From: Desulfurococcaceae archaeon
GTDB lineage: Archaea; Thermoproteota; Thermoprotei_A; Sulfolobales; Desulfurococcaceae
Direction: 5' to 3'
DNA length: 64,000 nt
Assembly: GCA_038845865.1 (NCBI GenBank)
Contig: JAWBQJ010000001.1
Coordinates: 434,001-498,000, forward strand
Shown here in pieces: positions 28,804 to 32,697 of the stretch (positions are counted from its first letter, which is position 1; each line of letters begins with the position of its first letter). The notes under the pieces are model-generated. The model saw only the letters and a program-made list of their open reading frames with translations. It searched no databases and was not told where the DNA came from. A program made the translations under genes and the position numbers.

Positions 28804-30150
28804 TCATACCTCCAGGTCCAGGCCTTCTACCGCTTCTGGGATCTTTATGCCCAGTTTCTTTAAGACGTCTTTTCTCCTTATGGTCTTGAGGATCTTCTTG
28901 ACTGCCTCGTACTGTTTAAGTAGCTCCTTAACGTCTTCGGTACTCACTCCCGCCCCGTAAGCTATTCTCTTAATCCTCGACCTATCCACGATCTCGGGGT
29001 TATCCAGTTCTTCGTAAGTCATGGAGTTTATTATTGCGATCCACTTATTGAGCTTTTTCTCGAGCTCCTTGGAGTCTACTTCAAGTGGCAGTTTAAGCTC
29101 GAATCCTGGAATCATTTGTAGCAGCTTTTTGAGAGGCCCCAGCCTCCTCAAGTTGATTAGCTGCTTGTATATCAGCCTCATGTTTATCCTGCCCTCGAAG
29201 AGCTGCTTAACGTCTTCTTCCGTGAATTCCAACCGGGCTCTCCTCACGGACTCCACGAGGCTTTCCACGTCACCTAGTCCGAGCATTCTCGAAATAAATC
29301 TCGAAGGCCTGAACACCTCGAGGTCCTCAACCCCCTCCCCAATTCCAACAAACTTTACCGAGGCCCCGGTAGCAATAACGGCGGAGAGCGCTCCACCACC
29401 TTTTGCCGTGCCATCAAGCTTCGAAATCACTATCGAGCCTATGGGTGTTGCCTCGTGGAACTTCTTGGCTATGGTGTATGCCTGCTGGCCTGTTGAGGCG
29501 TCTATCACTAGCATTATCTCGTCGGGTTTTACGGCCTCGTAGATCTCTTTCATCTCTTCGAGAAGCGATTCTTCCTTGTGGTGCCTTCCAGCCGTATCTA
29601 TAATGGCTACGTCAAAGCCCCGTTGAACGAAGTACTCAACACCTCTCTTCGCTATGCTGACAGCGTCTTTTTCTCCGGGCTCGCCGTATACTGGTACGCC
29701 TATTTGGTCCCCCAGCTGCTTTAACTGATCGTAAGCAGCCGGCCTGTAGGTATCAGCTGCTATGAGCCCTACCTTGTATCCTTCTAGCTTGTAGAAGTAT
29801 GCTATTTTCGCCGCAGTAGTTGTCTTACCACTACCCTGCAAGCCTACTAGGAGCATGACCCAGGGCTTTTTAGACGGCCTTACCGGAGGCTTCTTGTCGC
29901 CTCCCAGGAGCTTTAGTAGCTCCTCGTACACTATGGTGATGAACCAGTTCTTCCTGGAAATACCTGGCGGGGGCTTCTCGCCAATTGCTCTTTGTCTAAT
30001 TCTACTCGCAATTTCCGAGACGAGCTTTAAGTTTACGTCTGATTTTATCAGCTCCTTTTGCAGGTCTTTTATAAACTCGTTCACAGCATCCTCGTACTTA
30101 TCCTGCCGTAGAAACTTCCTCAAAGCATCCTTTACTCCATCAAACACCAA
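28804..30150 (-). CDS. srp54: Signal recognition particle GTPase SRP54
   Basis: 448 residues: N domain (1-95), GTPase G domain with G1 VGLQGSGKTTTAAKIA near 105-120, G3 DTAGRHHKEE, G4 SKLDGTAKGGG, and a helical M domain from about 300 with LKKLLQMIPG for 7S RNA and signal-peptide binding. Targets nascent membrane and secreted proteins. First gene of a unit with pus10. Confidence 0.97.
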   Translation of the reverse strand: MVFDGVKDALRKFLRQDKYEDAVNEFIKDLQKELIKSDVNLKLVSEIASRIRQRAIGEKPPPGISRKNWFITIVYEELLKLLGGDKKPPVRPSKKPWVMLLVGLQGSGKTTTAAKIAYFYKLEGYKVGLIAADTYRPAAYDQLKQLGDQIGVPVYGEPGEKDAVSIAKRGVEYFVQRGFDVAIIDTAGRHHKEESLLEEMKEIYEAVKPDEIMLVIDASTGQQAYTIAKKFHEATPIGSIVISKLDGTAKGGGALSAVIATGASVKFVGIGEGVEDLEVFRPSRFISRMLGLGDVESLVESVRRARLEFTEEDVKQLFEGRINMRLIYKQLINLRRLGPLKKLLQMIPGFELKLPLEVDSKELEKKLNKWIAIINSMTYEELDNPEIVDRSRIKRIAYGAGVSTEDVKELLKQYEAVKKILKTIRRKDVLKKLGIKIPEAVEGLDLEV

Positions 30151-30266
30151 TTACCATACCCCACAAGCACCAGTATCGTGTCCTCAAATACATGAACCCG
30201 CTATTATGTCTTTAGCCGGCGCGCTTCGATCGTAGCATTATCCCAGTGCAAGGAGGACTAGAGTAA

Positions 30267-30351
30267 TGCGGGGGGTGGGATTCGAACCCACGCAGGCCTA
30301 CGCCAGCGGATCTTAAGTCCGCCCCCTTTGACCTGGCTCGGGCACCCCCGC
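30267..30351 (-). tRNA. tRNA-Leu(UAA)
   Basis: 85-base type II tRNA, acceptor GCGGGGG/CCCCCGC, discriminator A, anticodon stem GCGGA/UCCGC on loop CUUAAGA, long variable arm, T-loop UUCGAAU. No intron; CCA not encoded. A TTTTAAAG box near 30380-30387 fits its promoter. Confidence 0.95.
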
Positions 30352-30386
30352 ACCACTATAATTCAATTTAATTATGGGCTTTAAAA

Positions 30387-30487: not shown

Positions 30488-30949
30488 CTACACTTTTGCT
30501 CTGTCAATGTATTCTCGCGCTTTTTTGAGCGTGCCCGTCGTTCTTATTGGTATTACGATGCACTTTCTCCCCTCGATGTTCTTTACAAGGCCCATCGCGG
30601 CGACTACATAGTCCACATACGTGTGTAAAACCCTCACAACGCCGCGCCCTACCTTCTCATCGAAAAGCACCACGTGGGGAGAGGCCTTGTGAAGCGTGCC
30701 TTGCCCATAGTACTCGGTGATTTTTTCTTTGATGGACTTCTCGACTTCGACTTGCGAAACACTGCCTTCGCACAGGGTCGTAAACACGATGTATCGCTTT
30801 CTAGGCTTCTTGGAGGTCGTAGTCTTAGCTTCGAGCATGCTTTTAACCGCCTTGTAGTACCTGGCGGTCTTCCTTAGCAACACGATCAAGGCGATGCTCA
30901 TGGCGATTGATAGTACAAGCAATATTAAGGTGACGTATTCAAGCATCAT
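30488..30949 (-). CDS. rnp2: RNase P protein Pop5 with an N-terminal membrane helix
   Basis: 153 residues. Residues about 48-150 form the Pop5 (Rpp14 family) domain: KRYIVFTTL, VEKSIKEKITEYYGQGTL, GRGVVRVLHTYVDYVVAAMGLV. Residues 4-26 (EYVTLILLVLSIAMSIALIVLL) are a clear transmembrane helix followed by a basic linker, an unusual extension. ATG 30949 overlaps the stop of the Rpp30 gene (ATGA), supporting this start; an internal ATG at codon 38 would give the ordinary form. Pairs with Rpp30 in 5' tRNA processing. Confidence 0.85.
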   Translation of the reverse strand: MMLEYVTLILLVLSIAMSIALIVLLRKTARYYKAVKSMLEAKTTTSKKPRKRYIVFTTLCEGSVSQVEVEKSIKEKITEYYGQGTLHKASPHVVLFDEKVGRGVVRVLHTYVDYVVAAMGLVKNIEGRKCIVIPIRTTGTLKKAREYIDRAKV

Positions 30950-31539
30950 TGTACCCCTTTACTAGACAGGATCTGCCTGGGAACGTCGGTCAGCGATAGT
31001 AACGCTGTCTTTTCCGGTATGTCATATTGCGTTGACAGGAGCTTAATTAGCGATATAGGTGGGACAAGGTCAACCCATTCCCTTGCAGACGAGCCCACAA
31101 CAAATGCAATATTGCTTCTAACAAACATGTTTAACCTCCTGTAGAGCATGCCCCGCAACTCGCTACTGGTGTAAAGGAGGTGTGGTAGGTGAACTTCAAG
31201 GGCCTTCGCGTAGTACTTCATCACGCTTGCCTGCCTTTTATCGAAGATCTTCATGTTTTCCGGGGTCATTAGTATGCTGTCCACTCTACTGTCGTGTGCA
31301 GCCCACCTGGCAGTTTCTACCGTGACCGGGTACACAGTTACAAACACCTTTTTGTAATTGACATCCCGCAACGCGCTTCTCAGGTCCGAGAGCCTTTCAG
31401 CCGTAATTATTGCCTTTTCAAAGACCCTGACGTAGAAGCCTTTAGGGGTATCGGCGTGCACTTCACTACACGCTAAGGTAAAGTAGCCGAGTCTTAACGC
31501 AACTTCCAGTAACCGCGAATCACACCGCTGAACGTGCAC
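30946..31539 (-). CDS. rnp3: RNase P protein Rpp30
   Basis: 197 residues, PHP/TIM-barrel-like. Recognised by VDSILMTPENMKIFDKRQASVMKYYAKALEV (central stretch, conserved D...FD..qa..a...), HLPHLLYTS and the end SLTDVPRQILSS. It forms the Pop5-Rpp30 pair that activates the catalytic domain of RNase P RNA. Transcribed after L15e and the DUF54 gene, an arrangement common to archaea. Confidence 0.9.
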   Translation of the reverse strand: MHVQRCDSRLLEVALRLGYFTLACSEVHADTPKGFYVRVFEKAIITAERLSDLRSALRDVNYKKVFVTVYPVTVETARWAAHDSRVDSILMTPENMKIFDKRQASVMKYYAKALEVHLPHLLYTSSELRGMLYRRLNMFVRSNIAFVVGSSAREWVDLVPPISLIKLLSTQYDIPEKTALLSLTDVPRQILSSKGVQ

Positions 31540-31585
31540 GTCAACGAATATCCTTGTAAGCAGAATTACACCTCCATTGCCCTGC

Positions 31586-32068
31586 CTAGGCTATTAAACC
31601 AGTGTTCCTAAAGAAGTTTAGGGCGTCAGAGCGTTTTTTAGCGCTTTTCAGGTGAAAAACAACCTTTACTACGTCATCTGAGTCGGTTATTCTGAGACGC
31701 CCTAAAAGTAAATCCTGCTTAGAGAACCTCACCACAAATCTCCCTGTTTTGGGGTCGTATCTAAGATCGAACGTAGATTTCAACACAGCCTTCTCAAGTG
31801 GACCTAGAGATACTGCGAGGTGTTTCGTGATCAGTTCAGCGTACCGCTCATCCGAGATTCTAGCAGTAATGATGCTTATTGGATTGCCGTAGTATCCCTC
31901 CTTCTCCACGCGGTTTATTCTAATAAGCTTCCTGAGCTCCTGTGGAAAGACGTTTCTTACCGATTCCTCGACACGAAAACAGTCTTCCGTTGCATGGCAG
32001 AAAGCCGCTACTTCAATATGCGAGATTTCTACTCCTCGCCTTCTCTTAGTTTCTCTACTGCTTGCCAT
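31586..32068 (-). CDS. DUF54 (COG1325) RNA-binding protein
   Basis: 160 residues. [59 protein letters not shown] match the archaeal DUF54 family, once proposed as an exosome-associated RNA-binding protein. ATG 32068 lies 40 bases inside the L15e gene; no other start precedes the conserved region. Its place between L15e and the RNase P genes is standard. Confidence 0.85.
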
Positions 32069-32697
32069 GGTTCACGAGCTCCCCTACTAGCTTCGTGCCG
32101 TTTCTTTAGTTCACGTTCCTTCTGCTTCCTTTTCCACTTGTAGTATACTGTCCCGCGCAAGCCTCTACTCCTCCTCAATCCCCTAACCTTCTTACCCGCG
32201 CTAGTGAGCCCCCTGAAGGCCCTTCCTCTATGTTGTGGTTCGCAGATCCACTTGATGTCAGGGTCACTACATATAGCTGGATGATTCCTGTCAACTAAGA
32301 TTACTTCATACCACTTGTACTTGCCGTCCTCCCCAACGTAGTAGCTGTTTAGAACTTCTAGGTTACGGTATTTTCTTGCAGCCCTTTCCTCGGCGATAAG
32401 CCTCAAGCTTTTCGCTGGGGCGTACCCGTATACCCCCATTCTCTTAGGTCTTCTACCGCTCCGCGGTCTCGGCCTTCTCTGCCCTCCTTTTCTTACCCTT
32501 ACTCTAACAACTACGAATCCCACTTTTGCCTTGTAGCCCAGAGCCTTCGCCCTGTCTAGGCGCGTTGGTTTATCTACTCTTAGCACTGTTGGTTGCCTCC
32601 TCCACTCTATGAGCCGCCTCGCTAGTAGCTCTCTGAGCTCGCCCCTGTATATCCTATGCCACGTTTCAGCAATGTAGTGGTACATGCCCTTAGCCAT
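32029..32697 (-). CDS. rpl15e: Ribosomal protein L15e
   Basis: 222 residues, with [60 protein letters not shown] and [15 protein letters not shown], all characteristic of L15e. The tail beyond about 200 is charged and longer than in many archaea. First gene of the L15e-DUF54-Rpp30-Pop5 unit; divergent from the Obg-like GTPase. Confidence 0.96.

Follow-up and report, generated by a model that had tools for sequence, protein, structure and literature searches.

A predicted N-terminal transmembrane helix on Pop5, found across an archaeal order, probably ties normally soluble RNase P to the cell membrane

Results

The pop5 locus

The window, the 64,000-nucleotide stretch of DNA analysed here, encodes the RNase P protein Pop5 on its minus strand, in a cluster whose gene order is L15e, PF01877 RNA-binding protein, Rpp30, Pop5. 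The genes at the locus are the following.

32029–32697, minus strand: ribosomal protein L15e, upstream gene of the cluster (PF00827, 3.8e-80)
31586–32068, minus strand: PF01877 RNA-binding protein of the same operon (Pfam), an internal control lacking a hydrophobic segment
30946–31563, minus strand: Rpp30 (RNase P protein component 3), the partner of Pop5 (PF01876, 1.1e-4; the GTG-start ORF is 30946–31539)
30488–30949, minus strand: Pop5 (RNase P protein component 2) with an N-terminal membrane-anchor extension, 153 aa (ORF, PF01900, fold match to 2av5, 2czv and 3wz0)
30266–30352, minus strand: tRNA-Leu(TAA), downstream of pop5
28804–30150, minus strand: SRP54, downstream of pop5 (named from its sequence)

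The start codon of pop5 (ATG, 30949–30947) overlaps the Rpp30 stop as ATGA, an overlap already noted in the original prediction and the usual sign of translational coupling within an operon. The spacing is similarly tight elsewhere, with the Pop5 start at most 60 nt from the Rpp30 stop in 99 of 101 loci that contain Rpp30. The true start of rpp30 is probably the CTG at 31563–31561 and not the GTG at 31539: the N-terminus conserved in the genus continues in frame upstream of this GTG, contains no ATG, GTG or TTG, and has a CTG preceded by GGAGGTG. A CTG occurs at about the same place in relatives L002, L003, L004 and L005, and a TTG in L006, a sequence pattern that suggests that rpp30 translation starts at a conserved CUG in the genus. 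The adjacency of SRP54 and pop5, tried as a meaningful pairing with membrane insertion, was rejected; it occurs at only 6 of 131 loci and is therefore local.

The remaining parts of the enzyme are also present in the genome to which the window belongs, including an RNase P RNA gene (RF00373, 151 bits, G000:C3:123788–124109), Rpp29 (PF01868, 1.2e-21) and Rpp21 (PF04032, 3.4e-18), which points to an ordinary ribonucleoprotein (RNP) enzyme with an added anchor. Reading the ORF sequences of Rpp29 and Rpp21 from this genome by eye revealed no hydrophobic segment comparable to that of Pop5. The relatives examined have one pop5 gene per genome, and the second copy seen in one of them (G009) sits on a short contig, and the assembly concerned has 7% contamination.

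A canonical Pop5 core behind a hydrophobic helix

The Pop5 protein divides into the following parts, all on the minus strand.

30869–30934, minus strand: predicted transmembrane helix, residues ~6–27 (VTLILLVLSIAMSIALIVLLRK), with the small-xxx-small motif S14xxxS18 (19-residue Kyte-Doolittle mean, Wimley-White)
30821–30946, minus strand: single continuous helix, residues 2–43 (AlphaFold2 and post-transmembrane hydrophobic moment)
30836–30838, minus strand: internal ATG (Met38), candidate alternative start, rejected
30800–30820, minus strand: linker, residues 44–50 (TTSKKPR), coil in AlphaFold2 with a pLDDT of about 78
30500–30799, minus strand: canonical Pop5 core, residues 51–150 (PF01900, conserved residues, AlphaFold2, fold match)

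The PF01900 match covers residues 52–147 (1.3e-17, 64.2 bits against a cut-off of 23; profile positions 1–102 of 104), and the top PDB sequence matches are Pop5 from M. jannaschii, P. furiosus, P. horikoshii and T. kodakarensis. Of the conserved Pop5 residues (RY, R and an SGT-type motif) listed in a survey of archaeal RNase P proteins (PMC4919917), the core keeps the invariant R52-Y53, R106, and an xGT motif at T138-G139-T140, where TGT replaces SGT and G139 is nearly invariant. A Foldseek search with the predicted structure returned Pop5 for all top matches, at 1.2–2.3 Å rmsd to crystal structures; the predicted core lies 1.4 Å from P. furiosus Pop5 and 1.2–1.4 Å from 2av5 and 3wz0. The matching part of the archaeal Pop5 relatives in the PDB begins at their residue 11–13, and the first ~50 residues of the protein encoded here have no counterpart in them.

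These additional residues carry the hydrophobic stretch that the original prediction had placed at residues 4–26 and read as a transmembrane helix added to Pop5. The best 19-residue Kyte-Doolittle mean is 2.98 (from residue 6) and the Wimley-White octanol sum is –12.7 kcal/mol. AlphaFold2, run with a 63-sequence alignment, gave a mean pLDDT of 95.7 (94–98 in ten-residue blocks for residues 1–40) and a layout of helix 2–43, short linker and Pop5 core. The helix consists of the predicted membrane part and a basic, amphipathic, predicted cytosolic part of ~16 residues (28–43), whose hydrophobic moment exceeds that of shuffles. The transmembrane calls made here come from hydropathy scales and AlphaFold2 rather than from a trained topology predictor.

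Distribution of the helix across archaea

The original prediction concerned a single gene; the anchor marks the entire order, a group of heat-loving archaea, and is not confined to this genome. The stretch of the Pop5 frame between the preceding stop and the core was compared among relatives of the window genome, then in the order, class and phylum, and a hydrophobic segment was scored at a 19-residue Kyte-Doolittle mean of at least 1.6. Every same-genus relative examined has the extension. The order and its sister families together contribute 130 genomes from 14 families, and the segment is present in 127 of them (median 2.56), counts that are phylogenetically dependent because the genomes are related. 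Within the GTDB order of the window the helix is found in 124 of 127 genomes, from 11 families; three further genomes, all with the helix, belong to sister families. Another 21 genomes gave the same picture, except for one borderline value of 1.31 (G454) and one frame truncated where its contig ends. Among the loci from the profile scan, 18 are named, including Desulfurococcales, Pyrodictiaceae and Thermoprotei archaea. As a control, the neighbouring proteins were scored in the same way: none of 101 Rpp30 loci reached 2.0, and none of 71 loci of the upstream PF01877 protein reached 1.6.

One genus of family f5 is plainly helix-less (G040, locus L049, and G066, locus L164). Its Pop5 is 115 aa long, directly follows Rpp30 and has no extension, and no replacement membrane protein was seen beside pop5. 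We read this genus as having lost the anchor and as a natural helix-less control; the anchor is thus not essential everywhere. The remaining exception, G109, is borderline, with a hydrophobic mean of 1.44.

In sister families f12, f13 and f14 (loci L087, L089, L116/L213, L224 and L225/L211), Pop5 has two hydrophobic helices. AlphaFold2 models this version as a helical hairpin (residues 2–27 and 33–81) followed by the same core, with a pLDDT of 95; with two helices, the N-terminus would be cytosolic.

Outside the class, no translated hydrophobic segment was found in 49 genomes of the phylum, where a median of only 13 codons of open frame precedes the core. The sole hydrophobic frame there (G206) was rejected, as it lacks a start codon and its Pop5 begins at an ATG beside the core. 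The helix is also absent from the one examined member (G064) of the remaining family of the class, from the short Pop5 of the f18 relatives, and from five loci of other archaeal groups. Neither the Pfam nor the A1 profile found Pop5 in complete genomes of families f17 and f23, where it is either very divergent or missing.

Translation of the extension

Pooled over 29 pairs of related genomes, pN/pS is 0.37 for the extension and 0.20 for the core, indicating purifying selection. A Shine-Dalgarno match of at least 4 nt lies before the starts immediately N-terminal to the helix in 80% of genomes, compared with 41% for matched random codons; starts between the helix and the core show no such enrichment (40% vs. 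45% for the control). In 32 genomes, including the same-genus relatives L004 and L006, there is no ATG, GTG or TTG between helix and core at all, and the hydrophobicity of the helix is retained despite low identity of the segment. Judged by these four sequence-level signals together, the extension is translated and maintained by selection, in agreement with the original prediction, which had considered translation probable.

It is scarcely credible that annotation has mistaken untranslated DNA for coding sequence here, or that the extension is the neutral by-product of a drifting start codon. Low sequence identity alone would speak for it, and it has to contend with a pN/pS well below 1, the Shine-Dalgarno matches at the N-terminal starts, the hydrophobicity seen in nearly all genomes and the sharp boundary at the level of the class. 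The selection data and the neighbour-protein controls likewise led us to reject a chance hydrophobic frame ahead of the core.

It is very improbable that the gene makes two isoforms, an anchored Pop5 from the N-terminal start and a soluble one from an internal start, leaving RNase P only partly tethered. An in-frame ATG does follow the helix here (30838), and 92 of 124 in-order genomes have some ATG, GTG or TTG between helix and core. However, internal starts have no more ribosome-binding-site signal than random codons, L004 and L006 have no internal start, and with ordinary start codons a short form is impossible in 32 genomes. On the same grounds we rejected initiation at ATG 30838. This had been named at the outset as an outcome that would overturn the idea of an added helix, as had absence of the extension from all relatives, which instead have it throughout the genus.

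Predicted orientation and packing of the helix

The number of charged residues in the 19-residue window is 0 in 88 of the 127 segments, 1 in 38, and at least 2 in a single case. Mean net charge is –0.4 before the helix and +3.1 after it, with a positive-inside bias in 119 of 127; this bias of the flanks indicates an N-out/C-in orientation. Small-xxx-small motifs and small residues spaced by seven are enriched in the helices, with z of about 5 relative to shuffles when one genome per genus is used (54 genera; z = 5.0 for small-xxx-small), values that shared ancestry inflates. This enrichment suggests packing of the helix on a partner; the second Pop5 in a (Pop5-Rpp30)2 heterotetramer is a plausible one.

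In principle, a hydrophobic stretch of ~22 residues could instead be buried in another protein. The helix would then lie outside the membrane, packed inside the RNP or on a soluble protein, for example in Pop5-Pop5 dimerisation. The enrichment of small residues on one helix face and the two copies of Pop5 in the archaeal holoenzyme (PMC6565675) are what this arrangement would lead one to expect. It is nevertheless unlikely, given that charged residues number no more than one per 19 positions in 126 of 127 segments, at a median hydropathy of 2.56, that a basic C-flank and a short N-tail are typical of a signal anchor, that the sister families have a two-helix hairpin, and that segment length and identity drift while hydrophobicity stays.

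In family f11 (e.g. loci L038, L047, L121, L131 and L161), the helices contain a WLxx[LI][TS] motif in nine of the ten genera looked at. A motif this specific, lying within a membrane helix, hints at a fixed partner.

Discussion

Nearly all organisms have an RNase P, and the enzyme is regarded as soluble (or as nuclear or organellar). We think it likely that the gene studied here encodes a Pop5 that carries a single-pass N-out/C-in membrane anchor and belongs to an archaeal RNase P ordinary in all other respects. The domain match, predicted structure, selection, start-site and phylogenetic evidence all bear out the original proposal of a Pop5 with an added, translated transmembrane helix. Viewed over the order, the Pop5 helix probably ties a normally soluble RNase P to the cell membrane, a reading drawn from sequence comparison in which tethering of the holoenzyme is the best inference. 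With a single pop5 gene, preserved core residues and the rest of the enzyme encoded, the simplest account has the RNase P of the cell as the thing tethered.

The anchor might alternatively serve an RNase P-independent job of Pop5, such as recruitment of ribosomes or of the exosome, with most of the enzyme assembling without it. In archaea, pop5 lies together with genes for the exosome and the proteasome (PMC4919917), and a membrane location has been reported for the exosome of Sulfolobus (Roppelt et al. 2010, FEBS Lett 584:2791), as such a role would have it. We regard it as quite improbable, as the single pop5 per genome retains the conserved core residues, leaving no other Pop5 for RNase P.

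If RNase P itself is tethered, the helix would be inserted co-translationally with its short N-tail outside the cell, and the stiff basic continuation of the helix (residues 28–43), together with the short flexible linker, would hold the Pop5 core at the cytosolic face. RNase P of M. jannaschii is dimeric, with two RNAs and a (Pop5-Rpp30)2 heterotetramer (PMC6565675). A holoenzyme built around such a heterotetramer would have two anchors, which could pair by small-xxx-small packing. In the same structure, the N-terminal tail of Pop5 contacts and helps to hold CR-IV of the RNA (PMC6565675); the basic linker between membrane and RNA would thus need to do two jobs here. Tethering would bring tRNA 5′ maturation together at the membrane, the reported site of the Sulfolobus exosome, and would keep RNase P away from other structured RNAs in the nucleoid; co-location with the exosome or exclusion from the nucleoid as its purpose is suggested by analogy.

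We give an even chance to a broader proposal for the order of Sulfolobus, Aeropyrum, Ignicoccus and Desulfurococcus. Here the whole cellular RNase P would be an integral-membrane RNP. Each dimeric holoenzyme would carry two anchors and belong, with the exosome, to a membrane-bound RNA-maturation hub. The anchor would have a single origin near the base of the class, with one- and two-helix versions according to family.

If tethering is true, a selected anchor across an archaeal order would mean that tRNA 5′ maturation is spatially confined there, and the principle of membrane tethering known from bacterial RNases E and Y would extend to archaea. The helix may also cause recombinant crenarchaeal RNase P to aggregate or fail when it is prepared with full-length Pop5. 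Sulfolobus acidocaldarius is genetically tractable, and the idea is directly testable there. Sulfolobus RNase P was reportedly described decades ago as unusually light and nuclease-resistant, which we do not use as evidence.

A full-text search of 5.4 million openly licensed papers returned no description of a membrane-anchored archaeal RNase P, consistent with the original prediction, which knew of none; an older or subscription paper may exist. The survey of archaeal RNase P proteins (PMC4919917) contains neither the word membrane nor the word extension, and an additional N-terminal helix is not described in its Pop5 section. Membranes go unmentioned in the M. jannaschii cryo-EM paper (PMC6565675) and in a later subunit review. 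No proteomics paper placing Pop5 in membranes was found in the open-literature search.

Comparison with known systems

The closest known proteins are the archaeal Pop5s of P. horikoshii (ph1481p), P. furiosus and M. jannaschii, which have in common with the present protein the core sequence, the fold, the adjoining Rpp30, and the RNA and other subunits. They differ at the N-terminus, where the solved proteins have ~10–12 residues before the core match and the present one has ~40–50 added residues with a predicted transmembrane helix.

In the Sulfolobus exosome, the same order offers an RNA-processing complex reported at the membrane (Roppelt et al. 2010), whose genes share an ancestral operon with pop5 (PMC4919917). 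The exosome is, however, a different enzyme from RNase P.

In bacteria, the RNase E degradosome of E. coli resembles the proposed arrangement in being an RNA-processing complex attached to the membrane. RNase E is held there by an internal membrane-targeting helix, not by an N-terminal transmembrane helix, and its anchor is not an RNase P subunit. One argument for membrane attachment of the degradosome is that it protects rRNA precursors in the nucleoid (PMC9848016).

The likeness to bacterial RNase Y lies in the architecture, a single N-terminal membrane helix that extends into a cytosolic helix and holds an RNA-processing enzyme. RNase Y has an N-terminal transmembrane helix followed by a coiled coil and KH and HD domains; Pop5 likewise has a translated, predicted N-terminal transmembrane helix with a positive-inside C-flank. 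The proteins and their chemistry are unrelated, RNase P being a ribozyme RNP that matures tRNA, and the significant sequence and fold matches of the present protein are to the Pop5 family only, with no homology to RNase Y or RNase E. Pop5 is therefore not a member of either family and by analogy would share with them, at most, the same way of working.
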